From IMG/VR virus record IMGVR_UViG_3300042350_002746, positions 1 through 30,098 of that record: DNA of 30,098 bases. One strand, written 5' to 3'. This DNA comes from a virus. Position 1 is the first letter of the stretch; each line of letters opens with the position of its first letter. The notes beneath the pieces were generated by a model that saw nothing but the letters and a program-made list of their open reading frames with translations, did not search any database and was not told the DNA's origin. A program made the translations under genes and the position numbers. Shown one piece after another: positions 13,545-27,803 of the stretch.

Positions 13545-13552
13545 TATTTATG
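13545..13552 (-). promoter_or_regulatory. T4-type late promoter variant (CATAAATA)
   Basis: CATAAATA on the minus strand matches the T4 late consensus TATAAATA at seven of eight positions. It lies 28 bases upstream of the structural-protein ATG, with an AGGAG site in between, and overlaps the last codons of the preceding modular gene. Confidence 0.5.
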
Positions 13553-14942
13553 TTTTCTGCATATCGCTAGACAATTCGGGGTTTTTTTGAAACTTGTCCG
13601 ATGCCTCTTCTTGTTCTTGCTTTTTACCTTTTGCAGCATCTCTGACGATTTGTGCTTTACGTGACAGAGTTCTTGCTGCTGCACTTGGTTCATCAGTATT
13701 TTCGTTCACGGACTTCCAACCACCACCCATTTCTTTGTATTTCTTTGCAGCCCAACCGTTAGCATATGCTGAAGGATATACATCAAACTTAGACTTTGCT
13801 TGTGCTTTAGCTTGCGCCCACTTCTCAGGTGATGTTGGCACATTCTTTTCTTCAAGTTGTTCAACCTCTTCCTTGACATGGCCATATTTCTTTTTGTACC
13901 AGTCAGGCATACCACTCTTTTGACGGAAGTATCTTACTGTCGCAGAATCATTTGCTTGATCACGATATTTGTTCTCGGATTGTGGACTGTGACCTTTCAT
14001 TGCTTCAGCAGCAGCATGTGCATCTTTAGCAATACCAATCAACTCAGCATTAGACTTTTTATGATAATCATGACCTTCTAATGGATGTCTTTGTGATGGA
14101 CGACCCTCTTCAAGTGTGTCTTCATCCATACGTCCATTCTTTGCAAGTCTTTCTTTACGTCTTTGTGCTGCAAATAACGCACCTTGTGGTTGTTTGTCTT
14201 TACCGTATTTCTTTTTCAAGTATTTGTCCACTTTACGTGCATATTCATCTTTTACTTCTTCAGTCAGTTCACCACGCAAGTAGTTTGCTGCGGTAGAAAT
14301 GTAATCTTCAGCAAGCGTAATCTTTGATTGCACCCATTCTGGCAGATTTGTATTCTCTTCCATCAAATCCATCATGTCTTCAGCATTGAAAACAAGTGAA
14401 CGAAGTTGTGACATTGCCATATCACCTTCATAATCATATTCACGTGGGTCTTTTGCTTCTCTTATCGGTGTTACTACCGTAGGAGATTTATATGGTTTTT
14501 TGACTGGTCCAGACACGAATTTTCCTTTCTGTTGTAATTGCTCATCAATTTCAGCTTCTTCGGAAACTCTTGATGCTTTCATGATGCCACGAATCAAAGG
14601 TGCTTTTAATTGATTGTGTCGTGGCACTGGAATAGAATGCTTTGCTTTTGGATGTTTATATACATCATGACCACCAGACGAACGTGCTAAAGCCCAACCT
14701 GATTTTTTTAAGTGAGCATGAACGTCACGTGTTTTCATACTTGATTCTGGCATCTCATCAAGCATTTCAACATCTTCTTTTCTTAAATCATCAATTTCTT
14801 TCTGCTTTTGTGCAGCAAGTTTTTTGTAATGATCTGGATCAGGCAATCCAGATTTCTTACGCAATTCTTGATGTTTACGATACATTTTTTCAGCCGCCGT
14901 TTCTGGCGGCATCTTAAAGTTGACTTTGATTTTGCCAGGCAT
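13548..14942 (-). CDS. Modular virion-type protein with HicA-like mRNA-interferase domain
   Basis: This is a 464-aa Lys/Glu-rich protein built of modules. Residues 12-50 are a helical PETAAEKMYRKHQELRKK-type segment. Residues 69-126 have the HicA toxin pattern: VHAHLKKSGWALARSSGGHD, VYKHP, then SIPVPRHNQL and IRGIMKAS, with H92 at the place of the HicA catalytic histidine. Residues 165-225 (EYDYEGDMAMSQLRS, LPEWVQSKITLAEDYISTAA) and 365-411 (NVPTSPEKWAQAKAQAKSKF, YPSAYANGWAAKKY) are modules that I recall in marine phage structural proteins. (L/I)-x-E sites separate them: LDE 61-63, IDE 132-134, IRE 160-162, LEE 277-279, LEE 363-365. No HicB antitoxin is seen. Probably a head-associated protein; RNase activity is inference. 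Confidence 0.75.
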   Translation of the reverse strand: MPGKIKVNFKMPPETAAEKMYRKHQELRKKSGLPDPDHYKKLAAQKQKEIDDLRKEDVEMLDEMPESSMKTRDVHAHLKKSGWALARSSGGHDVYKHPKAKHSIPVPRHNQLKAPLIRGIMKASRVSEEAEIDEQLQQKGKFVSGPVKKPYKSPTVVTPIREAKDPREYDYEGDMAMSQLRSLVFNAEDMMDLMEENTNLPEWVQSKITLAEDYISTAANYLRGELTEEVKDEYARKVDKYLKKKYGKDKQPQGALFAAQRRKERLAKNGRMDEDTLEEGRPSQRHPLEGHDYHKKSNAELIGIAKDAHAAAEAMKGHSPQSENKYRDQANDSATVRYFRQKSGMPDWYKKKYGHVKEEVEQLEEKNVPTSPEKWAQAKAQAKSKFDVYPSAYANGWAAKKYKEMGGGWKSVNENTDEPSAAARTLSRKAQIVRDAAKGKKQEQEEASDKFQKNPELSSDMQKT

Positions 14943-14944
14943 GA

Positions 14945-16153
14945 TTAGTCTTTCTTTGCCATCTTGGTTGCAGTTGCATACATTACTGATTTAGCACGTT
15001 CACCATAACGTTGTTTGAAACCAGAAAGACCTTTCTTCATGCCCATTACATAATCTTCTTTCTTTTTGGATTCACCTTTTGTCAGTTCACGCTCATCAAT
15101 TTGCTGAACACTTTCTGGCATTTCTTTTACACCAGTTGTCTTACCTGCTGCAACTTTTGGTTGTTTCTTTTTGCCTTCAAAGCTTGCTTTTTGATCTTCA
15201 AACTCTTTTGTGAATTCATCGTTTGTTGGTTCTTCAACAATTGTTTCAACATATCCATTGATTTTGTCGCCATCAATAACTTGAATAGTTGTGCCGTCAA
15301 TATCCATTTCCTCAGACTCAATTGGTGCCAAAACTTTCAAACCATGCTCATTGTAGAGTTCAAGCATTTCTGTGAATGACAGTTGTTCATTGACACGTGT
15401 TGAACGCTTATAGTTCTGACGAGCCCCATAGCCTTTTGCTTTCTTTTGCATATCATCAGATTCATCTTCATCTTTATAATCACGCTTATGAACAAGACCA
15501 GTTTTAGTTTTTGTTACAGAGCCATGTTCTGTTTTTCCAGCATCCATGCGTTTCTTTGCATCTGCTACAGTTGGAAATGCTTCATCAAGTTCAACTTCTT
15601 CTTTTTTCATTAAAGCTTTCGCTCTTTTCTCTTGAGTTGAATGATACTTAGCTTCAGCATCTTTTGCATAAATTTTTGCAGATTTTTCTTTAGGTACAGG
15701 TACAGTAGTATTGGTGTTTCTAATTTTTTCCATCTTACCTTTAGCCTCAGCACCTTTTTCTTTATGATAGGATGCAATTTGTGGTAATTTGCCTTTTCCA
15801 ACCAATTCATCAAGCTGTTCAACTTCTTCGTTTGTTTTCTTACCATAGTAATTGTCTTTGTAAAGGCGTGATGTTGCTTTACGCAGACCTTTCTCACGAT
15901 TTTTATCATTCAATGATTTCATTACATAACTACTGAGTGCTTTTCTGCCTGCTGGTGTATCACCAACTTCATCAAGTTGTTCAACATCTTCTTTCATACC
16001 TTTTTTAGCACGAAGGAGTTTAAAGTCATGAGCATCAACTTTGCCATTTTTGTTGGCATCAATTTTATGCTGATTACCTTTCAACTGTTCTCCCATAATT
16101 TTAGCTGCTGCTTCTGCTACACCTTTCAGTGCTTTGTCGTTAAAAATTGACAT
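14945..16153 (-). CDS. Modular virion-type protein with EF-hand-like loop and repeated QLDE motifs
   Basis: This 402-aa protein is rich in Lys and Glu and mostly helical or disordered. Residues 32-43 (DANKNGKVDAHD) fit an EF-hand or dockerin calcium loop: D1, N3, N5, G6, D9, D12. Linker motifs VEQLDE (57-62, 111-116), VELDE (187-191) and VQQIDE (349-354) separate modules such as DTPAGRKALSSYVMKSL (65-81) and, at the end, ESKKKEDYVMGMKKGLSG with AKSVMYATATKMAK. These module types recur, as I recall, across marine T4-like phage proteins. It lies 2 bases before the HicA-bearing gene and shares its linker type. Probably packaged or structural; no enzyme domain is recognised. Confidence 0.7.
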   Translation of the reverse strand: MSIFNDKALKGVAEAAAKIMGEQLKGNQHKIDANKNGKVDAHDFKLLRAKKGMKEDVEQLDEVGDTPAGRKALSSYVMKSLNDKNREKGLRKATSRLYKDNYYGKKTNEEVEQLDELVGKGKLPQIASYHKEKGAEAKGKMEKIRNTNTTVPVPKEKSAKIYAKDAEAKYHSTQEKRAKALMKKEEVELDEAFPTVADAKKRMDAGKTEHGSVTKTKTGLVHKRDYKDEDESDDMQKKAKGYGARQNYKRSTRVNEQLSFTEMLELYNEHGLKVLAPIESEEMDIDGTTIQVIDGDKINGYVETIVEEPTNDEFTKEFEDQKASFEGKKKQPKVAAGKTTGVKEMPESVQQIDERELTKGESKKKEDYVMGMKKGLSGFKQRYGERAKSVMYATATKMAKKD

Positions 16154-16168
16154 TTGAGTCTCCTGTTT

Positions 16169-16429
16169 TTAGTTTTTATATGCAATTGATACGGCTCTGA
16201 CATCACTTCCACTATTAACTTGAAGTGTATCCGTTATTTTTTTTTCTATAACTATTTCTGAATTGTTTAACATCGTAAAAGTTCCTATATTTGAACCAAT
16301 ACCATCAGCAATCGTAATTAAATGTTCTTGTGATCCAGTATGCACTAACCTAACAACAACCGCATTATTTACAGTAGTATTTGATGATGCATTTAAAATT
16401 ATTTCATTTGTTAAGACTTTAATCAGCAT
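16169..16429 (-). CDS. Small beta-rich putative structural protein
   Basis: The ATG at 16427-16429 (TAATG overlap with the upstream stop) is preferred over an in-frame GTG four codons earlier. The 86-aa product starts MLIKVLTNEIILNASSNTTV, has beta-strand-like stretches (AVVVRLVHTGSQEHLITIAD, SEIVIEKKITDTLQV) and ends VRAVSIAYKN. I recall similar short proteins (IKVLTNEI...TDTL...VAYKN) among structural genes of marine T4-like phages. It has no cysteine and no signal peptide. Likely a decoration or fibre-accessory protein, inferred from composition and its place among virion-type genes. Confidence 0.65.
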   Translation of the reverse strand: MLIKVLTNEIILNASSNTTVNNAVVVRLVHTGSQEHLITIADGIGSNIGTFTMLNNSEIVIEKKITDTLQVNSGSDVRAVSIAYKN

Positions 16430-17121
16430 TAACAATTCCACTTTCTTAAACTTTTGTTGATGCGTGAATCTGGATCGTTCGCAGTCTTAGCTGATGTTAA
16501 TCTTTTCTTCATGCCGCCCATTCTTGCACAAAATGACTTGCGGCGTTTTGCTGCTTTAGAATCTGGATCAAGTTTGGATGGCTTTGTTGTCACCGCCATT
16601 GATAACTTTGAACCAGGATTAGCACGACGATATGATTCAATGCCTTTACGATTCAAACCACCAGATTCAGATTGACCTTCTTTGCGTGTCCATGCTTCAC
16701 CTTCATCAAGTTCAATTTCTTCTTTTTTTAAATCGGAAGAAGAATGATGTTGTATTGCGTTTGGATAATATGAATTTGTGCCTTTTACATGAACTTCATC
16801 ACCATTTACAAATACAACAGAACCTTTTTTATTGTCCTTAGTTTTCACTGTATCACCAACCCTTATATTGTGAGTTGGTTGTTCAGTTTTATTTCCAGAT
16901 TGTTTTCGTGTAGCCGCATACATACTTGTTGCGGACGTAAATGATGCTTCATTAATATATTCAACTTCTTCTTTCTTCAGCGGCTTGCCTTGTCTGATTC
17001 TTTTGATATCATCATGAACATTCTCTTTGACACAAGAGCCAGGAGAATATGCTTTTTTGCCAGGCACTGATTTATAGCCCGGCCAGCATCTCTCATCTAA
17101 GTGTTGTTTGAACGATTTCAT
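16429..17121 (-). CDS. Modular protein with capsid-targeting-like N-terminus, KOW-like and DUF6321-like modules
   Basis: This 230-aa protein begins MKSFKQHLDE, resembling the T4 internal-protein targeting peptide MKTYQEFIAE and ending in L-D-E. Next come a Cys-containing module (CWPGYKSVPGKKAYSPGSC, 12-30), INE at 56-58, an SH3/KOW-like strand set (VGDTVKTKDNKKGSVVFVNG at 88-107), LDE at 138-140, and a C-terminal module starting WTRKEGQSESGGLNRKG and containing RRKSFCARMGGMKKR and a terminal RKWNC. That last module matches the DUF6321 type as I recall it. The four-base overlap with the upstream 906-aa gene ties them together. Function unknown; packaged head protein is the working idea. Confidence 0.7.
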   Translation of the reverse strand: MKSFKQHLDERCWPGYKSVPGKKAYSPGSCVKENVHDDIKRIRQGKPLKKEEVEYINEASFTSATSMYAATRKQSGNKTEQPTHNIRVGDTVKTKDNKKGSVVFVNGDEVHVKGTNSYYPNAIQHHSSSDLKKEEIELDEGEAWTRKEGQSESGGLNRKGIESYRRANPGSKLSMAVTTKPSKLDPDSKAAKRRKSFCARMGGMKKRLTSAKTANDPDSRINKSLRKWNC

Positions 17122-19838
17122 ACGTAGTTTCTCTTTTTGAATGTTGTAAGTGAGATACCTTTTTTCTTCAACTCATCTTCTTTCTGATCACCGATAGATG
17201 CTGTTGTTTCATCGCCAGTAAGTTCACTGATATTCTTTGGCACAACTTGTGTTGCTTTGCCCTTCTTACTTAGCTTCTCACCCATATCACGTGCAGGTGA
17301 TTCACCAGCTGCTGCCATAGAAATGCCGGGCTCTATGCCTTTGTCGATTGATTCTTCGATTTTTTTCTGGAAGTTTTCTTTAATGGTGCCGAGGCTGATT
17401 GTTCTTCGTTCTTCGGCAACGGGTTTGTCGAGGGCTGGTCGTTCTTTTCTTCCAGTACCGGTTCTAACTTTTCCAAGTTCTTTTGCTGACGGGGTGGACA
17501 TATTCTGTCCATAAACTGCTTCAATTGCAGAATTATCTGGTGAATGAATTTCATTTAAATCCTCTCTAAGTTTGACTGCATATTTGCTGCCGACTTTTAC
17601 TACGGTGCCGTTTTTTTGGTGTGCTTCTTTTGCTGCTGTACCACGAATATAAAACAATCTTGGATTGCCATTTTTATCCGACAAAAGTTTTTGTTTCTTT
17701 GTCTCTGTTTCTGTTTCTTCAAATTGCTTACCAATTAACTTTGTGCCAGAAACGTGTTGAATCATTTTCCATGCTTCTTTGTGATTCTTGTTTGCAAGGT
17801 GTTCTTTGAATTTTTTCTTTTGATCTGGTGTAGCTTTCTGATGAAACTTCATGACTTCCATCATGCCGATGTTGCCCTCATATGCAGCTTCACTGATCTT
17901 GCCCTTACCATAATTTGACACGTTGATTGGCTCACCTTTGCGTTCTGGATTTGGATCATGTTTGCGTTTTGCTGCAACGGCTGATGCACGTTCTTTCTTG
18001 GACAGTGATGCTCGTTTTTCGTTTGACATACATTTTGGTTTTGGTTCACCTGGTTCTCTAGCACAAGGACCAATTGCCTCACCTTTGCTATTGATGCGTT
18101 TCCAACCACCTTCAGGATCACTTTTACTAAACCATTTACGCAAGTCTTCTTTGATCATGCCTCTGCCTAGTGTCAGTAAATTGTATGCTCCAGCATCAGA
18201 CATTGTGTTTACTTCTTCGTGTTCAGTCATCTCTTCTTCGTCTGTTTTCAACAAACGAATTGTGCGTGTGACCTCTTCTACTGTATCGCCAGTAATTGAA
18301 ACTGTAACTGCTTCGTTAATGAATTCGTCAAATGCTTCATTAACCTTTGACATTTTCTTTTGATGCGTTTCAACAGTCTTGTTTATTTTTTCTACTGGTA
18401 TTAAACTACCATGAACAGAACGATGTGTTACTTTACCATCTTTACCATAACGACCGAAACCATAGTATTCAAGCCCCATCGTATTCATATCATCATGTGT
18501 GCCTGCATTTGCATGTGGCTTCATATCACGACGAATTGGCGCAGTATCTTTCTTACTTAACTCTGTAGCAATCCAACCTTTTGCATCATCATTCTTTGGT
18601 GGCTTACTAACAAATTTTTGCATGTTCTTAAAAATACCATCTAATTCTTTTGTCTTTGCTTCTACAACTTCTGGTGCGGCTGTTCGTAAGTCTTCTGAGT
18701 TATCAAATTCTACATAGTTGTCACGAAACAACTTACCAAACATTGGTCGTGCTGCTTGTACCGATTGCCATTTCTCTTTACGAATGTTTTCTGGTACTGT
18801 ACGACCACCACGTTGACCGCGTTCAATGTTTCTTTCTTTTGAAACTTCATCGGCGGTGTTGACCATGACCATAGATGTTTCATAACCCATCTTTTCAAGC
18901 ATCTCTTTGATCTTAGCATATTTTTCTGGATCATCACCAGTGCCATTGATGATAAGACCATTACGACCATGAAGTGCTAAACGCTGACGTAACTCAGTAA
19001 CATTCTTTGCACGTTTACGAACTGCGTTACGCTGTGCTTCTTCATCATCAGGCATTCGTTTATCAAGACCTTCTTTGTCCATCAGATACTCAAGTGCCTT
19101 GTCTGAATTGATTTCTGTCAGACCATGACCATCCAGTGTTTTGCTCAACACATAGTCTTTACCTGAACCTGGACCACCGCCTAGAAACACTGCTTTGAAA
19201 ATACCTTTGTCATGAACACCTTCACGAAGTATTTCTTCATGAAGTCTCATACCTTTGCGAACATCGTTATACATTTGTTTGACTTGAGCAACTGACATCG
19301 TTGATGGCGCACCTTTTTTAAAGGTGTCAAAATCTCCTTCTTTTGCGGCTTCACGCATTTTAGATGCAGAGATACCTTCTGCACCTTCTGCATCAGGATC
19401 ACGTTCACCAGCGGATTCTACACCAATATATTTGAAGTTGAAACGTGCGCCTTTATGTGTACCATTATATTTTTGAAGTAATTTTGCATATTCACCAGCA
19501 CGATCAGAACCAGCAACCATGTGAAGATGAGTTACGCCCTGTTTGTATAGTTTTTCTGCATGATCAAAGAATGTAGGTGCTTCTTTGGATGCTGCTATGA
19601 AGTTTGTATCGGGAAATGCACGTTTGGCGTGTTTGATTTTCTGATCTACCGTGAGGGGATTTTTCTTTGCATCCTGTGAGTGTGACAGGACAATGTGATG
19701 TGAGCCACCAACCTTAGTGGCAAGTTTTTTGACTGTTTTGACTACTTTTTCGTGACCGTTTGTAATTGGATTCATGCGCCCAAATGCTAGGACAGCATGT
19801 TTCTCTTTCTGTTCACGTAGAAAATCTCTAAATTTCAT
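17118..19838 (-). CDS. Large modular protein: NadR-like nucleotidyltransferase + P-loop kinase + DUF modules
   Basis: This 906-aa protein starts MKFRDFLRE (capsid-targeting-like, ending LRE). Residues 14-165 form a cytidylyltransferase-like domain: AFGRMNPITNGHE with TNGH at 26-29 for HxGH, and ISASKMR at 156-162. After a second LRE (204-206) comes a P-loop kinase with GGPGSGKD at 221-228 (Asp where Ser/Thr is usual) up to about 400. Then INE 507-509, a DUF5872-like segment at about 556-640 (WKRINSKGEAIGPCAR, LSKKERASAVAAKRK), ISE 648-650, an AYEGNIGMMEVMKFHQKAT module and a C-terminus SLTTFKKRNYV. NMNAT plus kinase is the NadR layout, so NAD salvage is possible. A GAGGGA site precedes the ATG. 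Confidence 0.8.
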   Translation of the reverse strand: MKFRDFLREQKEKHAVLAFGRMNPITNGHEKVVKTVKKLATKVGGSHHIVLSHSQDAKKNPLTVDQKIKHAKRAFPDTNFIAASKEAPTFFDHAEKLYKQGVTHLHMVAGSDRAGEYAKLLQKYNGTHKGARFNFKYIGVESAGERDPDAEGAEGISASKMREAAKEGDFDTFKKGAPSTMSVAQVKQMYNDVRKGMRLHEEILREGVHDKGIFKAVFLGGGPGSGKDYVLSKTLDGHGLTEINSDKALEYLMDKEGLDKRMPDDEEAQRNAVRKRAKNVTELRQRLALHGRNGLIINGTGDDPEKYAKIKEMLEKMGYETSMVMVNTADEVSKERNIERGQRGGRTVPENIRKEKWQSVQAARPMFGKLFRDNYVEFDNSEDLRTAAPEVVEAKTKELDGIFKNMQKFVSKPPKNDDAKGWIATELSKKDTAPIRRDMKPHANAGTHDDMNTMGLEYYGFGRYGKDGKVTHRSVHGSLIPVEKINKTVETHQKKMSKVNEAFDEFINEAVTVSITGDTVEEVTRTIRLLKTDEEEMTEHEEVNTMSDAGAYNLLTLGRGMIKEDLRKWFSKSDPEGGWKRINSKGEAIGPCAREPGEPKPKCMSNEKRASLSKKERASAVAAKRKHDPNPERKGEPINVSNYGKGKISEAAYEGNIGMMEVMKFHQKATPDQKKKFKEHLANKNHKEAWKMIQHVSGTKLIGKQFEETETETKKQKLLSDKNGNPRLFYIRGTAAKEAHQKNGTVVKVGSKYAVKLREDLNEIHSPDNSAIEAVYGQNMSTPSAKELGKVRTGTGRKERPALDKPVAEERRTISLGTIKENFQKKIEESIDKGIEPGISMAAAGESPARDMGEKLSKKGKATQVVPKNISELTGDETTASIGDQKEDELKKKGISLTTFKKRNYV

Positions 19839-19884: not shown

Positions 19885-20588
19885 TAAACTTCTAGCGTGT
19901 TTGTGGTGGCTACGATACCCTGACAGTGAATTGTATCAAGTTCAATCAATAAGTCTTGACCCACATTGAAGAAATGTGCATGTTCGGTGTCAACGCCAGC
20001 ATCTTGGATAACACCTAAATTTCTTCTGCACATGATCATATAGTCATCAATCAGGCTTGGACAAAAAGAAAACAATCTTGTGATGAGAAGGTCAGTAAAA
20101 AACTCTGCTCTTTCACCTTGGATCCAGGTTGGCATTCTTTTCTTGAACACGTATTTACCCCAATGATCGTGTTCGTATTGATTAAAGTCGCTCAATAAAT
20201 CGGTTCTTGCAGATAATTTAAAGATTCTATTTACAGAATGCATCATTTGCATCATGCTTGGCTCTTGTTTGAGTAGCATCATGGTCTTGAGCATGAGTGC
20301 ATTTTCAGCCTCACTCTTTTTATGTCGTGCGGCAAATCCACTGATCACTTCATCCGTAGAAAAATCTGCTACAAAATCAACAAAGTTTGAGATTGCACGA
20401 ATCTTTTCTTCTTCAACTTTTTTTGGTGAGCCGTCAACAAAAAGCACAATTGATTCTGGTATAGATTCTCTCAGTGTTTTGAGTCCTTGAATAGTTTGTT
20501 CAAGTCTCTCTTCAGGTGTAATGACACCCAAAGTTGCATTCAATGCCGATGTTACGATGAATAATTTATTGTTAGGTATCAGTGCCAT
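19881..20588 (-). CDS. Unknown protein at the end of the sugar cluster (glycosyltransferase-like?)
   Basis: This 235-aa soluble protein starts MALIPNNKLFIVTSALNATL, followed by TPEERLEQTIQGLKTLRESI and IVLFVDGSPKK, a beta-alpha-beta arrangement like the nucleotide-binding half of GT-A enzymes. In the middle is NRIFKLSARTDLLSDFNQYE, a segment I associate with uncharacterised viral glycosyltransferase-like proteins. A clear DxD is not visible. It overlaps the SDR gene by 10 bases and is the last gene of the sugar run. A sugar-transfer role is inferred from fold hints and context only. Confidence 0.55.
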   Translation of the reverse strand: MALIPNNKLFIVTSALNATLGVITPEERLEQTIQGLKTLRESIPESIVLFVDGSPKKVEEEKIRAISNFVDFVADFSTDEVISGFAARHKKSEAENALMLKTMMLLKQEPSMMQMMHSVNRIFKLSARTDLLSDFNQYEHDHWGKYVFKKRMPTWIQGERAEFFTDLLITRLFSFCPSLIDDYMIMCRRNLGVIQDAGVDTEHAHFFNVGQDLLIELDTIHCQGIVATTNTLEVY

Positions 20589-21250
20589 TCAAAGTCCGAA
20601 AATAATTTAATTGTTTTATATGTTGCTTTTGAATTTAATACATGAATCATGGTGTCTGTGACTTCTTTTGTGTTCATCATTTTATCTTTTGATGGGTGCT
20701 TGTCTTGCATTGTTGTTTTAATGCCACCAGGATGAATACTTGTCACACGAACTCCATTCATTTGTGTGCTTAGTTCTGCACCTAAAGCACCAGCAAATGC
20801 AGTGATGGCATGTTTAGATGCAGAGTAGACTGCTTCCCATTCCATCTCGTTAAGACCCGCAACAGAGTTGATGAAGAAAATATCACTACCTTTGTTCATC
20901 AATTTAAGTGCTTCTTTGGTCACATACATTGTGCCCTTGACATTTAAATCAATAATTTTGTCTATTTTTTCAATTGTGAAATAACTTTTGAAAAGACCCC
21001 ATTCATATACACCAGCATTATTCACAAGCACATCAATGTATGTGCCGATTCTTTTGAACGCTTCTTCAACTTGATCCGATTTTGAAATATCACATTCTAC
21101 CCACTGAAATGTATCCGGTGCAGAAAATAGTTTTACTGGTGGTTTTGTGCGTGAAAGACCATACACAAAATAACCTTCGTCAATCAGTCTGTCTGCAATA
21201 TCATGCCCAAGACCGTAACTGCAACCTGTTACTACAGCCACTTTACGCAT
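20579..21250 (-). CDS. Short-chain dehydrogenase/reductase
   Basis: This 223-aa NAD(P)-dependent oxidoreductase has the SDR set: TGCSYGLG at 8-15 for cofactor binding, NNAG at 77-80, catalytic S129, and Y142-x3-K146 (YSASK). The ATG at 21248-21250 (TGATG junction with the cyclase stop, GGAG 5 bases before) is preferred to the in-frame GTG one codon upstream, which is too close to the ribosome site. Lying directly after a sugar-phosphate cyclase and before a sugar-transfer-type gene, it probably reduces or oxidises a sugar or cyclitol intermediate. Substrate cannot be read from sequence. Confidence 0.85.
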   Translation of the reverse strand: MRKVAVVTGCSYGLGHDIADRLIDEGYFVYGLSRTKPPVKLFSAPDTFQWVECDISKSDQVEEAFKRIGTYIDVLVNNAGVYEWGLFKSYFTIEKIDKIIDLNVKGTMYVTKEALKLMNKGSDIFFINSVAGLNEMEWEAVYSASKHAITAFAGALGAELSTQMNGVRVTSIHPGGIKTTMQDKHPSKDKMMNTKEVTDTMIHVLNSKATYKTIKLFSDFEWH

Positions 21251-22386
21251 CACATCTCCTCAAAAACATCAATCGCAAGTTTCATTTCATCTTCAGTGAC
21301 ATCATTCACAATCTTATAGTTACCAATTGCAATAGGCAGTGGTGCATATTGATTACCATTACGATGCTTCGTTGCATCACGCAGACTCTCCAACAAATAC
21401 TTCATGTTGGTAAAATCTTTGTGAAATGTTTTTAGTTTCAATCTCTTTGCAACGTCAAAGATTCGTTTAAGTTGAACGGTGTCAATGTAGCCACGAATAA
21501 ATGAAATGCACGAACTATACAAACAATCTAATGCTACTGCTTCACCGTGCAACAACTCTGGTATATTAGCCATCTCAATTACAGGACTGAATGTGTGACC
21601 AAAATCTACGCAACGATCTAGTCGTTTTTCCCATAGATTTGGTCCTAATTCCGCAATCATGTCTGTAATAGCAAGATTGATTACACGAACTGGCACTGCA
21701 CCATACTGAAACTTTTCATCTATCAATATTTCTGCATTCTCTTCTAACAGATGAAATAGTTCTGGTGACTTGATGACTGCAAGTTTGAATATCTCTGCAA
21801 TGCCATTGACAATCTCACGTTCACTTTGCGTATTGATAAACTTTTTATCAATGTATGTTGCAAGTGGTGGATAGTATGCACCAATACGATTGCGTCTGCC
21901 TAGATGATTAACACCAACTTTAGAGCCTACAGAAGCATCAACGATGGCAAGAAGTGTTGTGGGAATTTTAACGTAGGGAATTCCACGACGGTATATGCTA
22001 CAAGCAAAGCCAACAATGTCCAGCAGAACACCTCCGCCAATTGCGATAATAGGTTCACGGCGCAACACTCCATATTGTTCAAAAAAGTCCAAAATACGAT
22101 CAACATTTTTCCAATTCTTGTTTTCTTCTTTACAGTCTACGCAAAGTATTTTACAACTTAACTTGACCGCGCCAAAGTATGCTGCAATACTGTCTTTGTA
22201 TAAATCATGCACCTCAGAATCAATGACAATAATTCTGCGATCACTATTTGTGATGTTTACAATATCTTGATTGCTAGGACTGAAGATATCAGCAGAATAA
22301 GTTAGTTTGAATTCTACTGGTAGTTCTGTTTTCACTGACCAAGTTCTTTTAAACTTGTCGTAATCCATCATAAAGTCTAAACTCAT
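21250..22386 (-). CDS. Sugar-phosphate cyclase (dehydroquinate synthase superfamily, EEVS-like)
   Basis: This 378-aa enzyme keeps the superfamily NAD and metal sites: GGGVLLDIVGF at 117-127, IPTTLLAIVDASVGSKVGVN at 141-160, and metal ligands E198 (NGIAEIFKLAV), H264 (DFGHTFSP) and H280 (LLHGEAVALD). Several segments are closer to 2-epi-5-epi-valiolone synthase (sedoheptulose-7-phosphate cyclase) patterns than to shikimate-pathway AroB: VLLDIVGFA, YRRGIPYVK, NRIGAYYPP and the C-terminal ATKHRNGNQYAPLPIAIG. No other aromatic-pathway gene is present, whereas kinase, nucleotidyltransferase and SDR genes are adjacent. A cyclitol product is therefore favoured, but AroB-like or other cyclase activity is not excluded. 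Overlaps the kinase gene by 4 bases. Confidence 0.8.
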   Translation of the reverse strand: MSLDFMMDYDKFKRTWSVKTELPVEFKLTYSADIFSPSNQDIVNITNSDRRIIVIDSEVHDLYKDSIAAYFGAVKLSCKILCVDCKEENKNWKNVDRILDFFEQYGVLRREPIIAIGGGVLLDIVGFACSIYRRGIPYVKIPTTLLAIVDASVGSKVGVNHLGRRNRIGAYYPPLATYIDKKFINTQSEREIVNGIAEIFKLAVIKSPELFHLLEENAEILIDEKFQYGAVPVRVINLAITDMIAELGPNLWEKRLDRCVDFGHTFSPVIEMANIPELLHGEAVALDCLYSSCISFIRGYIDTVQLKRIFDVAKRLKLKTFHKDFTNMKYLLESLRDATKHRNGNQYAPLPIAIGNYKIVNDVTEDEMKLAIDVFEEM

Positions 22387-23336
22387 CTCATTACCTTACT
22401 AAGCAAATCACATGCATGAACATAAAAATATTTTGCTTTATTGATATCGCCAGCAATTAACTTGAATGGCAGCATACGAATAAACTGTGATGCTTCTAGT
22501 ATATCTATGAGTTTCATTTTGTCTTCTGGCAACTCAGAAATAAAGTGCTTATTAAATACATCAAAGTTTTCTGTACCTCTGTTTGGATTGAATAAGTCAA
22601 TCCCCGTTACACGAACATCACGATCATTAATATATCCATAGTGACTACGTGAACATTGTAGAACTTGTGCATAGTCAAGATACTTAGTGTTCCACATACT
22701 TTCATCATATACATCAATGAAAACTACACGATCTTCTTCAAACGAATACATGATATTCTCAAGTGTTGGATTACCATGTATATTACATTCTTCATCGTTT
22801 TCTAGTTCATTGAAGTAGTTATGAAGATCATACAAATAGCCGCCAATGCCAATTACAATATTGTTGTCTAGACCATATGAACCACGATAAAAGAATTCTT
22901 CAAATGAAGGTAACTTAACGGCATCTTCAATCTTTTGTTGTATTTCTTCTTCAAAATATAAACTTGGTGCGCCGGGAATGAGTTCTTTTTTGATTGAATG
23001 TAGTGTGTTCAAACCTTTCCATACTGCTTGACTCATTCTAAAGATTTGTTCTTCACTCAGTATATCTTTAGTGAGAATAGTTTTGATATCACGAAAGCCT
23101 TCAAGATATTTCAAATCAAACCATGCAGTCTTAGCATTAGAACCAACATTTACAACTTTAGGAAATAAACCAGGATAAAGTGTATTGTATTCCTGTAGCT
23201 TCTTCAATTGAGAATACCAACGAACAAAACCATACTCACGATTCTCTACACGTGAAATTTCCTTACGCACAATTTTCTCATCTGGTATCAGATAAGTTTT
23301 ACTAAGTGAACCGCCTTTTAATGAAATAGTTTTCAT
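22383..23336 (-). CDS. APH-fold sugar/cyclitol kinase-like protein, HGN in place of HGD
   Basis: This 317-aa protein has the aminoglycoside-phosphotransferase/choline-kinase layout: an N-lobe with a possible ATP lysine K25 (KIVRKE), a hinge at about 70-80, and a C-lobe with IHGNPTLEN (186-194) and VVFIDVYDES (204-213). In active family members the catalytic loop reads HGD; here it is H187-G188-N189, with codon AAT at 22770-22772. N194 and D208 (metal ligands) are kept. It could still act, perhaps with D211 or E192 helping, or be a binding protein. It overlaps both neighbours by 4 bases and lies between nucleotidyltransferase and cyclase. Confidence 0.7.
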   Translation of the reverse strand: MKTISLKGGSLSKTYLIPDEKIVRKEISRVENREYGFVRWYSQLKKLQEYNTLYPGLFPKVVNVGSNAKTAWFDLKYLEGFRDIKTILTKDILSEEQIFRMSQAVWKGLNTLHSIKKELIPGAPSLYFEEEIQQKIEDAVKLPSFEEFFYRGSYGLDNNIVIGIGGYLYDLHNYFNELENDEECNIHGNPTLENIMYSFEEDRVVFIDVYDESMWNTKYLDYAQVLQCSRSHYGYINDRDVRVTGIDLFNPNRGTENFDVFNKHFISELPEDKMKLIDILEASQFIRMLPFKLIAGDINKAKYFYVHACDLLSKVMR

Positions 23337-24055
23337 TTTGCATCCAATGTTTGCCTTGCTATCTCTATGCCGTATTCTTGTGGACTGCCCAATACAATAG
23401 TCTCTTGGTTGTTACCAAGCGGATTCATGAATACTTGTTTGTTAGATTCTATCATACTTTGAATCACATTTGCAATATACAATTCACCATCAGTTTGAAT
23501 TAATTTACTGTAGTATTCTAGATATAGATGTCCTGTTAGAAAGCCATAAAAACCTGATGATGCATACGGTGAAATTTGTTTCTTTTCTACGATTTCTGTG
23601 ATGAGGTTTTCATACGCACGAACATATGAATACTTCGGTGAGTTACCCACAAACACATCAATATATGCATCATATTTTGCAGTTAAGTCATCGGCAATAA
23701 AGTCTACACGACGACCCTTGATGATCGTGTCTGCATTATGAATGAACGTTGGTAAATGTTTATTATTGAGTAGTTCAATACCGATTGCTGCTGTGTGTGC
23801 TTGACCCTTTGTATCACCAATGTAGAGAATATTGCTGTCATTCCAACCTAGCGGTTTGATTGCTTCCACAAGTTGATCTTTGAAATAAACATCTCTCTTG
23901 TTTGCTACAAGAATAAGTTGCGTAACCCAACCAAGGTTCTTTAGAATTTCATAAATGATTGTCTTGTCATTCCATGGCAAAAGATATTTGGGTATATCAA
24001 AGCCCACATCGTGAAAACGTGTGTTATAACCTGCCATGCAAATTATCAGATTCAT
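23333..24055 (-). CDS. Sugar nucleotidyltransferase (NTP_transferase family)
   Basis: The ATG at 24053-24055, in an ATGA overlap with the upstream stop, is preferred over one three codons upstream because the protein then starts directly with the Rossmann strand MNLIICMAGYNTRFHDVGF. The 240-aa product has the NTP-binding G9-x-N-T-R-F loop, the conserved lysine K23 in IPKYLLPW, and the metal aspartate D109 in HNADT. These mark enzymes that join NTP and a sugar-1-phosphate to give an NDP-sugar. The kinase immediately downstream could supply the phosphate. The last part (ETIVLGSPQEYGIE) is also typical of the family. Confidence 0.85.
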   Translation of the reverse strand: MNLIICMAGYNTRFHDVGFDIPKYLLPWNDKTIIYEILKNLGWVTQLILVANKRDVYFKDQLVEAIKPLGWNDSNILYIGDTKGQAHTAAIGIELLNNKHLPTFIHNADTIIKGRRVDFIADDLTAKYDAYIDVFVGNSPKYSYVRAYENLITEIVEKKQISPYASSGFYGFLTGHLYLEYYSKLIQTDGELYIANVIQSMIESNKQVFMNPLGNNQETIVLGSPQEYGIEIARQTLDAK

Positions 24056-24765
24056 TTTAGCCATTCTTCCATGTCTTCACGTAGCAATGAGTGCCACGTG
24101 CCGTTGTATTCACCTGGTGGAAACGGATGATTGATATCACAATAGACAAGATTCTCACCAACAAGTCCTTGTTTCTTCCAGTTTGCACTCATAAAATCTT
24201 CCATCATATACTGCACACCAGAATCATAAAATTCATCAATGTGATTATATGCATCGGCATATTTGTTCATATTTTCCGATGAGGAGAATGCAAACTGATC
24301 ATTACCAAAGTCCCGATCAGGTGTCACACGACAGTTTGGTATATACAATTTGTTAGGATTTAAGGTGTCAAATGTTATACGTGTGTTGATCGCAAAATCA
24401 AATCGTGAACGAATAACCCAATCAAATTTCATCTCAAAGTATTTTTCATATTCATACTTTGTTTTGATACACTCTCTTATTGCATACAACTGAGCATATG
24501 TTGACATGCGACCATCTTTTACTTTCCAGTTTGGTGATGGTGGTGGCGTGTTTGTGTATTTTGATAGGTCTACAGTTGGATTCGGTGATGTAATAAAACT
24601 GTATGCATTATATTTTTTTGAGATTTCTCTCATCTTTTCTGCTGGCATTTCCCACGAATGCAGAAATACAGTCACATCATTGCCACTGATAATATTTTTA
24701 TAATGGTACTCGTAACCTTTTTCCCACATTCGTGGTTGACCAGAAATACACAGTGCTATTCTCAT
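24052..24765 (-). CDS. Putative glycosyltransferase-like protein
   Basis: This 237-aa soluble protein begins MRIALCISGQPRMWEKGYEY and contains VTVFLHSWEM, YAQLYAIREC and the segment FDWVIRSRFDFAI, with an R-x-R-x-D arrangement that I recall from capsule and LPS-type glycosyltransferase-like proteins of phages and bacteria. The region DFGNDQFAFSSSENMNKYAD resembles the acceptor side of such enzymes. No membrane segment. It overlaps both neighbours by 4 bases within the sugar cluster. Activity and sugar are not known. Confidence 0.65.
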   Translation of the reverse strand: MRIALCISGQPRMWEKGYEYHYKNIISGNDVTVFLHSWEMPAEKMREISKKYNAYSFITSPNPTVDLSKYTNTPPPSPNWKVKDGRMSTYAQLYAIRECIKTKYEYEKYFEMKFDWVIRSRFDFAINTRITFDTLNPNKLYIPNCRVTPDRDFGNDQFAFSSSENMNKYADAYNHIDEFYDSGVQYMMEDFMSANWKKQGLVGENLVYCDINHPFPPGEYNGTWHSLLREDMEEWLK

Positions 24766-25439
24766 AGTTCGCGTCCGATGTTTGCCAAATTATCTGTAAT
24801 ACCAAACGGCTTCAGTTGTTCTTTTTCCATTACAACCATACTGTTGTAGAATGATACTGAATAAAGATTTCTATATGCTTCTAGTGCTTCATCAGAGATT
24901 GGTGAACCTTGAAAGTGCTGTTGATTCACAATATCACAAACTCTTTTTGAATGCTCAACGAAAGTTCCCGCACCTCTGAATGAACCACCCCAATGATGTG
25001 GCCAATAACTTGTATGTGTATCTTCACAAATATAAACGCCACCTTCTTTGATGTGTGAGAATACTTTGTTGACTGTGGTGATTTGATGATTCATGATATG
25101 TGAACCATCGTCAATTACAATATCAAACTTATCTTGTGTTGGTAAAAATTGATCCCAAAATACAGAATCACCTTGATCACCAATTACGATAAGTGCATCG
25201 CCATCGTATTTGTATTCTAGAGATTTGGGTTCAACATCTAAACCAATAACTGTGGTGCCCTCACCAAAGTATTTCAACCACAGTTCAATAGAACCACCAC
25301 CAAGAATTCCAATCTCAAGAATTCGTGGCTTTTTACCCACAAATTTACTCAGATGTCGTTCATACACATCAAAGTAGCCTGACCATTTGGTGGATGGTTT
25401 TTCTAATTGCCAAAACAACTCTTTAATTTTATTTGTCAT
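24762..25439 (-). CDS. Class I SAM-dependent methyltransferase
   Basis: The ATG at 25437-25439 with a GAGG site 6 bases upstream is preferred over an in-frame TTG four codons earlier. The 225-aa product has SAM motif I ILEIGILGGGS at 40-50, an acidic residue at the end of the next strand (D68 in VIGLDVE), and FDIVIDDGSHIMNHQ at 105-119, as in sugar O-methyltransferases of antibiotic and surface-glycan pathways. It lies between two glycosyltransferase-like genes, so a sugar hydroxyl is the likely target. DNA or protein methylation is less likely because no target-recognition domain is seen. Confidence 0.85.
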   Translation of the reverse strand: MTNKIKELFWQLEKPSTKWSGYFDVYERHLSKFVGKKPRILEIGILGGGSIELWLKYFGEGTTVIGLDVEPKSLEYKYDGDALIVIGDQGDSVFWDQFLPTQDKFDIVIDDGSHIMNHQITTVNKVFSHIKEGGVYICEDTHTSYWPHHWGGSFRGAGTFVEHSKRVCDIVNQQHFQGSPISDEALEAYRNLYSVSFYNSMVVMEKEQLKPFGITDNLANIGREL

Positions 25440-26271
25440 ATTTTGCCTCAATCACTTTCTTCCATTCTGGCACACGATCATACTGATGTACAATGGTATA
25501 CTCCATTCCTGTTGATGTTACAACCTTGTCACCATCTAATTTCGGTGATGGTTCAAGTAAGTAAGGCCTGAAGGAATTGATTTTACTTGGATCAGCAGTT
25601 GTACCTAATTGACATGCCCAACCATCTTCTGACTTGGTATACATTGATGATTTGAGATATGGATGTCTTGAAATCATTACGTTAAATACCGCTTGATCAA
25701 CAATGGGAATTGGACGATTAATACAATTCAAAAACAACTGAAGTGTTAAATCTCTCATCGCATGACCGCGACCAGCAAGAACACCTACATTGAAAATTGT
25801 ATTGTTCTTAAAGTCTTCGTAGATGCCCTGACCATAACATTCTGTAATGTTTTGTCTTCCCCAGGGTTCATCTTTGTACTTAATACTTTCTGAAGAAAAT
25901 ACTAAATCTTCATGTCCTTCTGGTAAATTCTCTTCCAACCATTGTACAGGATTTTTTTGAAAGATCACATCTTTCACATCAGTTGTAATTACGTAACGAT
26001 AGTCATTATCTTTGAGTAATTTGTAAATGTGAATGAAGCGTTCTACGTGTACCATCAATTGTGATTGATGTACCAAGTTGCCTTGATTATCTTGATTGAA
26101 TGCAATAATTGAGAAGCCTGCGTCAGTGACTTTTTGTACCGTATCTCTGTCGCAGTTCATAAGAATCAGAACTTTGTCACCCTCAAAGCCTGATTGATTG
26201 ATTGAATTAATCCAATATTTTAATTTTGACCAATCATAGTTGGTTGAACACCCCACAATACAATCTTTCAT
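25429..26271 (-). CDS. Putative GT-A-type glycosyltransferase
   Basis: This 280-aa protein shows a GT-A-like core: an N-terminal strand CIVGCSTNYDWSKLKYWINS, VLILMNC, then YVITTDVKDVIFQ at 93-105 with D98 and D101 in the position of the metal-binding DxD motif, followed by IFNVGVLAGRG and a DQAVFNVMI segment resembling the acceptor-side motifs of family 8-type enzymes. No membrane helix. It is the first gene of the sugar run, with a GGAGA site, and its end overlaps the methyltransferase by 11 bases. It probably transfers a sugar from the activated form made downstream, which is inference. Confidence 0.7.
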   Translation of the reverse strand: MKDCIVGCSTNYDWSKLKYWINSINQSGFEGDKVLILMNCDRDTVQKVTDAGFSIIAFNQDNQGNLVHQSQLMVHVERFIHIYKLLKDNDYRYVITTDVKDVIFQKNPVQWLEENLPEGHEDLVFSSESIKYKDEPWGRQNITECYGQGIYEDFKNNTIFNVGVLAGRGHAMRDLTLQLFLNCINRPIPIVDQAVFNVMISRHPYLKSSMYTKSEDGWACQLGTTADPSKINSFRPYLLEPSPKLDGDKVVTSTGMEYTIVHQYDRVPEWKKVIEAKYDK

Positions 26272-26286
26272 AATATCTCCAGTAAT

Positions 26287-26472
26287 TTATTTTATATCTG
26301 TCGTTGCCCAGTTTCCTGTATATTTTTTATATGTTTGCGTACTTTGACCAGGTGTATCGTCAAGATATTTAGCAGTCAGTTCTGGTCTGCCCCATTCACC
26401 ACCGCCTGCTTTAGACACAAATTCTTGTCTCTGATCTTTGTTTGCCTTTAAATAGTCTTTGAATGTTTTCAT
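26287..26472 (-). CDS. 61-aa protein with capsid-targeting-like N-terminus
   Basis: The ATG at 26470-26472 is chosen because it forms an ATGA overlap with the stop of the Fe-S carrier gene; a longer frame reaching 26499 would run far into that gene. The product starts [13 protein letters not shown], close to the T4 internal-protein leader MKTYQEFIAE (M-K-T-aromatic, two residues, aromatic, Leu/Ile), though it ends LKA rather than L-x-E. The rest ([20 protein letters not shown] and an aromatic tail [14 protein letters not shown]) shows no known domain. Small size and leader suggest an internal head protein candidate. Confidence 0.6.
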
Positions 26473-26792
26473 ATCGTGAATGATGAACCACAACCACACG
26501 TTGCGGTTACGTTAGGATTTTTGATTGTAAATGATGCACCCATCATATCTTCTTTATAATCAATCTCTGCTTCATTCATATATTGCATACTCATACTATC
26601 TATGACAACACCAACACCATCTCTTTCAAACGTAAAGTCATCGTCTGCTGCCGGCAATTCTTCTAATGAGAAACCATATTGAAAACCAGAACAACCTCCA
26701 CCCTGTACGAATACACGCAATTTCAATGAAGGGTCTTCTTCATCAATAATTGTTTTGATTTTTTTTACAGCCGAATCGGATATGGTAATCAT
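26469..26792 (-). CDS. A-type iron-sulfur carrier (ErpA/IscA/HesB family)
   Basis: This 107-aa protein has the three family cysteines: C34 in [10 protein letters not shown], and C99 and C101 in the terminal CGCGSSF. Length is typical. In bacteria these proteins hand [2Fe-2S] or [4Fe-4S] clusters to target enzymes. HesB-like genes are a known auxiliary gene in marine T4-like phages. The ATG overlaps the 2OG oxygenase stop by 4 bases. Which target it serves here cannot be told; no evident Fe-S enzyme is in the window. Confidence 0.92.
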
Positions 26793-27517
26793 ACAACAAC
26801 TTTTCTGATAATGTTTTGTATAACAGCATCTTTTGGATATCTATCACCTAATAGATTTTTATCCACAGGACTTAGACCATCTATTTCATATGTTCTTGGA
26901 TTTGGATTTAATGACCATCTTGCCCATGCCATAGCCCTAGCATTGATTCGTGGTTTATGACCCATATGCATCTGTCTTGTATCAGCAAAAAACATTGTGC
27001 CAGCAGGACCAAAAATATCTACTCTTTGCCCATCTTTTTGTTCAAAAGCATGTGCGCCATCTTCAATTGTCAACACATCTGTTAGATAAACAAACAATGC
27101 TAAAAAGTTTTCACTGTCGTGGTCTCTGTGCCATGTTTGAACACCCTCATAATTTGGTCCGGCAGGATTGCTGTAAAAAATATTGTAACTGTACAAAACG
27201 ATGTCTTTAGTGCCAAAATATTCTGTAACAATATCTGTCATCTTCAAAGATGCTTCAAACCAATGTGGTGCAAGAACGACATCTTGCATAGCAACGCTGC
27301 TACAATTTGAAGGTGCAGTTCTTCTATCACTTATGGGGTTTACTTGATGACCCTTTACGTGATAATTGTACCAGATGCAGCCATCAAAGTATTCTCTAAA
27401 TTCACGTGCAACATCTTCCTTTAAACGACCTGCATGACTCCAACCTTTTTCGTGAATATTTTTTGCAACTGTTGAGTTGTCAATCATAGTTTCTTGTTTA
27501 AATAAATGATCATACAT
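26789..27517 (-). CDS. 2-oxoglutarate/Fe(II)-dependent dioxygenase (PhyH-like)
   Basis: This 242-aa protein has the facial triad in a double-stranded beta-helix: H130-R-D132 in TWHRDHD and the distal histidine H184 in RQMHMGH, followed by R194 in [11 protein letters not shown] as a likely 2OG carboxylate ligand. The [10 protein letters not shown] and [10 protein letters not shown] segments are PhyH-like. Such enzymes are frequent in marine T4-like phages with unknown substrate. AAAGGA lies 9 bases before the ATG. It is coupled to the Fe-S carrier gene downstream. Candidate substrates are a nucleic-acid base, a protein side chain or a small molecule; no choice is possible from sequence. Confidence 0.85.
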
Positions 27518-27530
27518 AATAAATTTTCCT

Positions 27531-27803
27531 TTAACCTCTAGTTAGAGTGAGTATCTTTTGCATTTGCTTTTCAATGATTGATCCACGGTTAGGCCAGTGA
27601 ATGTATGGTTGATTTGCAGTTTTATATAGATTCGTTAAAAATGGCATGATGATTTTTTCCACTTGTTGAAGTCTTGCTTTATATTCTTCAACTGTTTCAT
27701 CCTTCTCCGCAATAACTGCCTGATATTCTACTTCATCAACTGCGCTAAAACCAAAATCATCGTCTGCATATTCTGCTAAAATTTTATTGATATCGTATGT
27801 CAT
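27531..27803 (-). CDS. Small conserved phage protein (90 aa)
   Basis: The ATG at 27801-27803 gives the usual ATGA overlap with the upstream stop; another in-frame ATG lies three codons upstream at 27812. The product begins MTYDINKILAEYADDDFGFS, has an acidic helical middle (EYKARLQQVEKIIMPFLTNL) and ends with QPYIHWPNRGSIIEKQMQKI, a segment that I recall in a short protein widely conserved in T4-like cyanophages. No membrane or catalytic motif. Function unknown. Confidence 0.75.
   Translation of the reverse strand: MTYDINKILAEYADDDFGFSAVDEVEYQAVIAEKDETVEEYKARLQQVEKIIMPFLTNLYKTANQPYIHWPNRGSIIEKQMQKILTLTRG

Follow-up and report, generated by a model that had tools for sequence, protein, structure and literature searches.

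The window studied here is a 30,098-nucleotide (nt) fragment of a T4-like phage (IMG/VR record IMGVR_UViG_3300042350_002746), in which nrdA/nrdB, thymidylate synthase, primase and endolysin genes were found. Between positions 13548 and 19838 its minus strand holds genes for proteins of 906, 230, 90, 402 and 464 amino acids (aa). Leaving aside the 90-aa gene (16169-16441, minus strand), which has no relation to the present finding, these are the products of late genes of a T4-like aquatic phage, and they are mosaic. Each consists of cassettes, which are small domains or disordered stretches, joined by K-E-E-V-E-(x)-[L/I]-x-E or by plain [L/I]-x-E. Judged from sequence, the four mosaic proteins are probably polyprotein-like, cleaved by the protease gp21 within the head and delivered along with the DNA.

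The T4 protease gp21 recognizes L/I-X-E and cuts after the Glu (PMC9026906). An earlier, sequence-only reading of this region had noted motifs of this form in the four proteins, and all those that it cited were found on the minus strand where it had placed them. Orthologues of the four proteins were taken from 35 related contigs and aligned pairwise. Ahead of 16 homologous module starts, 99 distinct 10-mers were collected: 96 have Glu at P1, 66 have Leu and 21 have Ile at P3, and P2 and P4 show eleven and thirteen different residues, respectively; a few of the anchors sit one or two residues off the joint, which explains most exceptions. In a wider set, 10 of the 12 anchors have Glu at P1 in every case, and the remaining two do not begin at the joint. 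The proposed fit to the gp21 rule is borne out in that P1 and P3 stay constant at homologous joints as P2 drifts, with P3 being Leu or Ile and in a minority Met or Val. The proteins, joints and cassettes are as follows, (-) denoting the minus strand.

17118..19838 (-): 906-aa protein; leader MKFRDFLRE, nucleotidyltransferase, LRE joint, P-loop kinase, then more LxE-bordered stretches
19812..19820 (-): LRE closing the N-terminal leader; LxE retained in 16/16 relatives
19242..19811 (-): nucleotidyltransferase module (NMNAT/cytidylyltransferase-like), from family matches, an AlphaFold2 model and Foldseek
19221..19229 (-): LRE joint at the nucleotidyltransferase/kinase border; [LI]xE in 17/17 relatives, P2 = R/T/L/N/S
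18564..19220 (-): P-loop kinase module (Zeta-toxin/polynucleotide-kinase-like), from family matches and Foldseek
18312..18320 (-): INE joint preceding AVTVSITGDT; [LIM]xE in 16/16, P2 = N/S/D
18147..18155 (-): IKE joint preceding the DLRKWF module; retained in 16/16
17889..17897 (-): ISE joint preceding AAYEGNIGMMEVMKFHQKA; 14/16 aligned
16429..17121 (-): 230-aa protein; leader, CWxGYK module, ASFTSAT cassette and C-terminal DUF6321 module (PF19846, phrog_727)
17092..17100 (-): LDE closing the leader MKSFKQHLDE; [LIM]xE in 16/16, P2 = D/T/E
16948..16956 (-): INE joint (VEYINE) preceding the ASFTSAT cassette; identical VEYINE ahead of the cassette in L250/L251
16702..16947 (-): ASFTSAT...SDLKKEEIELDE cassette, shared with a 708-aa protein (L250)
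16702..16710 (-): LDE joint (IELDE) preceding the DUF6321 module; [LIM]xE in 16/16, P2 = D/E/K/R/Q
14945..16153 (-): 402-aa mosaic protein; 12 relatives with differing cassette sets
15968..15985 (-): joint VEQLDE preceding VGDTPAGRK; L/VxE in 10/10
15806..15823 (-): joint VEQLDE preceding the LVGKGKLP cassette, which lies between joints and has other neighbours in L245, L246, L248 and L249
15581..15805 (-): cassette LVGKGKLPQIASYHKEK...EEVELDE; DNA homology 83-89%
15581..15595 (-): joint VELDE preceding AFPTVADAKK; LxE in 12/12, P2 = N/D/Q
15233..15241 (-): weaker joint IVE preceding EPTNDEFTKE; LxE in 9/12
15092..15109 (-): joint VQQIDE preceding the C-terminal RELTKGE module; [LI]xE in 12/12
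13548..14942 (-): 464-aa mosaic protein with HicA-like module (PF07927 HicA, 38.9 bits, cut-off 27)
14754..14771 (-): joint VEMLDE preceding the HicA module; LxE in 12/12
14568..14744 (-): HicA-like module (residues 67-125) with GGHDVY motif, from profile match and model
14541..14552 (-): joint EIDE after the HicA module; [IV]xE in 12/12, P2 = D/E/N
14259..14267 (-): joint LTE; LxE in 12/12, P2 = N/T/S, several cassettes inserted
14106..14114 (-): joint LEE preceding GRPSQRHPLEG; LxE in 12/12, P2 = Q/E/N/S/T
13848..13865 (-): joint VEQLEE preceding KNVPTSPEKW; LxE in 12/12

Position says more than number about these motifs. Plain [LI]xE is in clear excess over composition in the 464-aa protein alone (9 against 3.7 expected, p=0.004), the other three lying near the shuffled expectation (5 against 3.8, 3 against 1.2 and 13 against 8.7), and the count was set aside as too weak an argument. 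The longer form [VI][EQ]x0-2[LI][DE]E occurs in 2, 4 and 1 copies against 0.00-0.03 expected in three of the four proteins, and is absent from the 906-aa protein. The relatives provided 34 distinct module indels, each spanning 18 residues or more between well-aligned flanks, and the junction in the shorter form was scored for [LI]xE within 9 residues and compared with random positions. Such empty sites lay within 9 aa of [LI]xE for 26 of the 34 indels, as opposed to 10.0 +/- 2.6 for random positions (none of 5,000 simulations was as high), and both insert ends did so for 21 of the 34, against 3.7 +/- 1.8. No such excess was seen with the control triplets [LI]xK, [LI]xD, [LI]xA, [AG]xE and Ex[LI]. 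ExE and KxE do show it, because both triplets form part of the K-E-E-V-E-x-L-D-E joint. In the comparison proposed by the sequence-only reading, LxE is commoner at module borders than expected, though this is visible in position and only weakly in plain counts.

Cassettes of about 50-140 aa are inserted, deleted and swapped at the joints among aquatic T4-like phages, and both the indel positions and the cassette breakpoints place the motifs between otherwise unrelated modules. The ASFTSAT cassette, lacking in most orthologues of the 230-aa protein, matches a cassette in the unrelated 708-aa protein of another contig at 99% DNA identity over 271 nt; the homology begins in KKEEVEY, stops in KKEE(I/V)E, and falls outside the joints to 17/60 and 16/60. 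The LVGKGKLP cassette of the 402-aa protein keeps other company in four further contigs, and the homology of the LVGKGKLPQIASYHKEK cassette ends inside the joints in L246, L248 and L249, continuing in L245 into the shared AFPTVADA module. Cassettes are inserted at the VQQIDE joint in L013, L017 and L022, and the 57-aa module that begins at the ISE joint is missing from some relatives. The VEQLEE joint was seen in 27 distinct upstream contexts (P1 = E in 27/27, P3 = L/I in 27/27), and the DLRKWF module, found also behind MKE in T4-GC_119 of cyanophage S-BM3, has P1 = E in 19/19 distinct contexts. The HicA-like module was found in 29 loci, preceded by a joint in the loci read. When 161 distinct open reading frames (ORFs) with at least two joints were divided, the resulting 633 segments fell into 311 clusters, and 48 of the 61 multi-member clusters had differing neighbours on one or both sides; some cassettes are invariably first or invariably last. 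One DNA form of the joint is common in viral contigs among the matches listed in a scan.

Recognizable enzymes lie in the 906-aa protein, whose relatives are L001-L033 and whose family matches are phrog_3041/395 cytidyltransferase, PF06414 Zeta_toxin, PF13671 and phrog_727. As the sequence-only reading had it, LRE both ends the leader (19812-19820) and parts nucleotidyltransferase from kinase (19221-19229). The latter joint, [LI]xE followed by GVHD, is kept where the N-terminal nucleotidyltransferase-like region differs (L025/L028) and where an extra module is present (L010/L019/L020); in the distant relatives L025 and L028 a very dissimilar region (MKFSRFIQEAKGQSKVIVVYGGGFQPFHAGHM...) precedes this kinase. 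When the nucleotidyltransferase-kinase pair was compared by Foldseek, the top hits were NadR structures (6gyf/6gye; E 1.7e-8, about 425 columns), though with template modelling (TM) scores of only 0.13-0.28. NadR combines a nicotinamide mononucleotide adenylyltransferase with a ribosylnicotinamide kinase; the kinase here matches Zeta toxin and polynucleotide kinase (PNK) by sequence, and an NAD-salvage role for the pair is speculation. Family searches with the 402-aa protein gave no match beyond weak EF-hand/dockerin similarity. As to the HicA-like toxin module of the 464-aa protein (13548-14942, minus strand), no HicB antitoxin was noticed nearby.

Several observations connect these proteins with the phage head. 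The 906-aa and 230-aa proteins carry a capsid-targeting-type leader ending in LxE (MKFRDFLRE, MKSFKQHLDE), a form that is rare among ORFs (3/193 in relative G004, 3/223 in relative G008, 3/40 in the window). The borders behind such leaders are equivalent to those between cassettes. With a slash marking the border, the kinase follows an N-terminal leader in gp129 of Pelagibacter phage HTVC008M (MIPFILKE/GLYDPGIFKA) and an internal joint in the 906-aa protein (EEILRE/GVHDKGIFKA). The GRPSQRH module stands elsewhere directly behind the leaders MKNFKTFITE and MIKFNEYTVLEE, and the AWxRKEG and CWxGYK modules likewise follow leaders (MLKFKDFILE/VAAWQRKEG and MKSFKQHLDE/RCWPGYK). The S-BM3 protein T4-GC_119, encoded between gp16 and gp17, unites in one chain modules that the window distributes among three proteins, and three of its module borders have [LIM]xE. 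In relative G010 a gp67-like prohead gene contains the EGIKGAAIGGALG module, shared with a relative of the 402-aa protein, and in three relatives EEVELEE, EELTE or EDLNE occurs in the core gene that adjoins the gp67-like one.

Relatives of the nucleotidyltransferase have been detected in virions. Mass spectrometry (MS) found a cytidylyltransferase in purified virions of the cyanophages S-SM1 (PMC3037559), S-CREM2 (PMC10665884) and S-SZBM1 (PMC9146016), although the S-CREM2 authors caution that highly expressed phage proteins may co-purify with virions (PMC10665884). The S-SZBM1 virion nucleotidyltransferase is 37% identical to the window protein and begins MRFRQFIIE; a neighbouring protein, likewise detected by MS, has a CWKGYK module akin to the one in the 230-aa protein. 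Similarity between the 192-aa protein of the window and the S-SZBM1 virion protein at the comparable place was not significant.

A suitable protease is encoded in the phage group. Genes for gp21 (PF03420, Peptidase_S77) are present in relatives G004, G008 and G010, located upstream of gp23, and in 8 of 17 further joint-bearing contigs, the remainder of which are mostly fragments. The close relative G004 (133 kb) has both gp21 and gp23, and the latter shares 65% identity with gp23 of cyanophage P-TIM40. The gp23 propeptide site itself is LxE in all nine contigs read. Nucleotide comparison of the window with known phages gave no match, nor did psbA, sought as a host clue among 7 incomplete contigs.

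The better-predicted parts of the AlphaFold models are the HicA module (67-125), the nucleotidyltransferase (10-199) and the kinase (211-425). The predicted local distance difference test score (pLDDT) is 67-79 for HicA residues 71-120 and mostly 70-84 for the nucleotidyltransferase. It lies below 50 at the joints examined (53-63, 127-134, 274-279 and 360-365 in the 464-aa protein, 200-210 in the 906-aa protein). The models were built from 12-17 sequences each, with mean pLDDT 47 and 51. Motifs buried inside folded domains had been named in the sequence-only reading as grounds for rejecting cleavage; the joints examined fall outside the predicted folds, which, with models this shallow, merely fails to refute it.

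The mechanism that we favour would run as follows. The 906-aa and 230-aa proteins would enter the prohead by way of their T4-like leaders, and the 402-aa and 464-aa proteins by some other route. During maturation gp21 would cut after the Glu of exposed joints, and the released cassettes, whatever the function of each may be, would remain in the head to be ejected together with the DNA. The joint may have a double role, serving both as a protein cleavage site and as a short homology at which cassettes can be spliced without losing their processing. As a hypothesis, the polyprotein idea has good support. The earlier proposal of protease-released modules inside the head stands as far as the borders, the gp21 rule, gp21 in relatives, the leader equivalence and nucleotidyltransferase relatives in virions are concerned, with the release itself still conditional. 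More tentatively, hundreds of cassettes could be shared by aquatic T4-like phages as a swappable packaged payload, with the joint acting as seam and head-protease site and the cassettes being released for delivery to the host.

Several results weigh against cleavage by gp21. P3 is Val in 26 of 102 EEVEQxDE copies of the wider set, outside the strict T4 rule, and no co-variation was seen between P3 at the joints and the gp23 propeptide site, which keeps Leu, though copies are too few per contig. The gp21 gene is not within the 30-kb window, its position lying outside the fragment. The 402-aa and 464-aa proteins, the most mosaic of the four, start MSIFNDKALK and MPGKIKVNFK, with no capsid-targeting-type leader, and on present evidence cannot be classified as T4-type internal proteins. 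Shallow alignments make low pLDDT weak evidence of disorder, and conserved [LI]xE occurs also inside predicted helices (NLPEW, LTLAEDY). LxE away from the joints is depleted in the 402-aa family only (observed/expected 0.25, against 1.53, 0.78 and 1.36 in the others); with one family concerned, and a mask that is imperfect for the 464-aa family, this depletion was rejected as support.

The strongest alternative, which we think unlikely, reduces the joint to a recombination seam and flexible linker, uncut by any protease, with cassettes spreading through recombination at the short DNA that they share. Cassette homology that stops inside the joint fits it well, as does the choice of codons: 53 of the 54 joint copies encode Val by GTT, compared with 42% genome use, a bias that suggests shared DNA ancestry or DNA-level conservation, and same-residue codon identity between joint copies is 0.63 against 0.52 expected. 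As DNA the joint is a recombination seam too, where cassettes are exchanged, a point that the sequence-only reading did not raise, so its conservation need not stem from proteolysis alone. A seam and nothing more sits poorly with a joint that varies (LDE, IDE, LEE, LNE, LTE, LSE, LQE, LRE) while P1 and P3 remain constant, and with the recurrence of these borders after N-terminal leaders and between nucleotidyltransferase and kinase, a place that lacks the VEQLDE form. The seam view and the cleavage view are compatible.

Slightly less probable again is that the cassettes are expendable prohead-core fillers like T4 gp22, gp67 and gp68, their gp21 peptides mostly leaving the head and the cassettes having no job after maturation. 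There is a precedent in T4 (PMC9026906), gp22 is dense in LxE, the gp67-like gene of a relative shares a module with a mosaic protein, and the models show most cassettes, which are short and rich in Lys and Glu, as poorly folded. Yet the nucleotidyltransferase, kinase and HicA modules retain recognizable family motifs, and it is from mature virions that the nucleotidyltransferase relatives were recovered. That Lys/Glu-rich linkers hold LxE by mere compositional accident would suit the near-shuffled counts in three of the four proteins; it is contradicted by the position test, the control motifs, the invariance of P1 and P3 and the exact cassette breakpoints, and can hardly be entertained.

An open-access literature search found no earlier description of the joint. 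Closest to it among known concepts are the processing of T4 internal proteins by gp21 and the polyvalent proteins. The T4 internal proteins processed by gp21 (IPI-III, Alt) are similar in their short leader ending L/I-x-E, in the presence of gp21 in the phage group, in their variability between phages and in including a packaged enzyme. They lose terminal propeptides only, whereas here the sites recur between internal cassettes, which are exchanged at those sites. Likewise, the T4 core proteins gp22, gp67 and gp68 have several LxE sites each, and the gp67-like gene of G010 shares a module; core proteins are degraded, whereas the mosaic proteins bear recognizable enzyme and toxin domains. The polyvalent proteins of phages and conjugative elements carry many unrelated conflict domains per chain and are thought to enter with the DNA. 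Their release by embedded peptidase domains has been proposed by authors who themselves drew the polyprotein analogy (Iyer et al. 2017, PMC5512222). The window proteins share the feature of several unrelated effector-type domains per chain (nucleotidyltransferase plus Zeta/PNK-like kinase, and HicA in the 464-aa protein). Unlike polyvalent proteins, the four gave no match to an embedded peptidase domain in family searches, and the fitting protease, gp21, is encoded elsewhere. In the giant phages phiKZ and SPN3US (gp175/gp245) prohead proteases cut extensively after Glu in packaged, ejected proteins, although this removes propeptides and does not act on cassette strings, and it is the T4 (L/I) rule that fits here. 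Fragments are also shuffled between phage proteins in the mosaicism described in PMC10684548; here a single recurring motif, one that also suits a protease, is where the shuffling takes place.

Should cleavage be confirmed, the polyprotein strategy, so far associated chiefly with RNA viruses of eukaryotes, would extend to abundant phages of aquatic habitats, and a DNA-virus polyprotein would provide an expandable payload of injected enzymes and toxins. This would assign many hypothetical cyanophage and pelagiphage proteins a role, account for the cytidylyltransferases in cyanophage virions, and make the joint a practical marker for recognizing packaged effectors.

Some further features of the region deserve mention. 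The DUF6321 module (SFCARM...WNC; 16429-16710, minus strand) also occurs in small non-T4-like podoviruses (P-SCSP1k, pelagiphages), so that its role is not tied to gp21. A 407-aa protein (27800-29023, minus strand), whose family is conserved among these phages, opens with MKFMDYLKE, a leader of the form seen in the 906-aa and 230-aa proteins, and from this start may be another packaged protein; the comparable S-SZBM1 protein (gp135) starts MAKNTHLEHLEDD, without that form. In place of the 90-aa gene (16169-16441, minus strand) relatives carry different small genes and a probable structural gene of 436 aa (MAQFRTDLHKIDSGQV...); in L008 and L014, HNH-like ORFs have been inserted nearby. This is a second site of gene turnover. 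Adjoining the island is a carbohydrate-type gene run (20579-27517, minus strand; FabG-like reductase, glycosyltransferase, methyltransferase) that possibly serves surface glycan synthesis.

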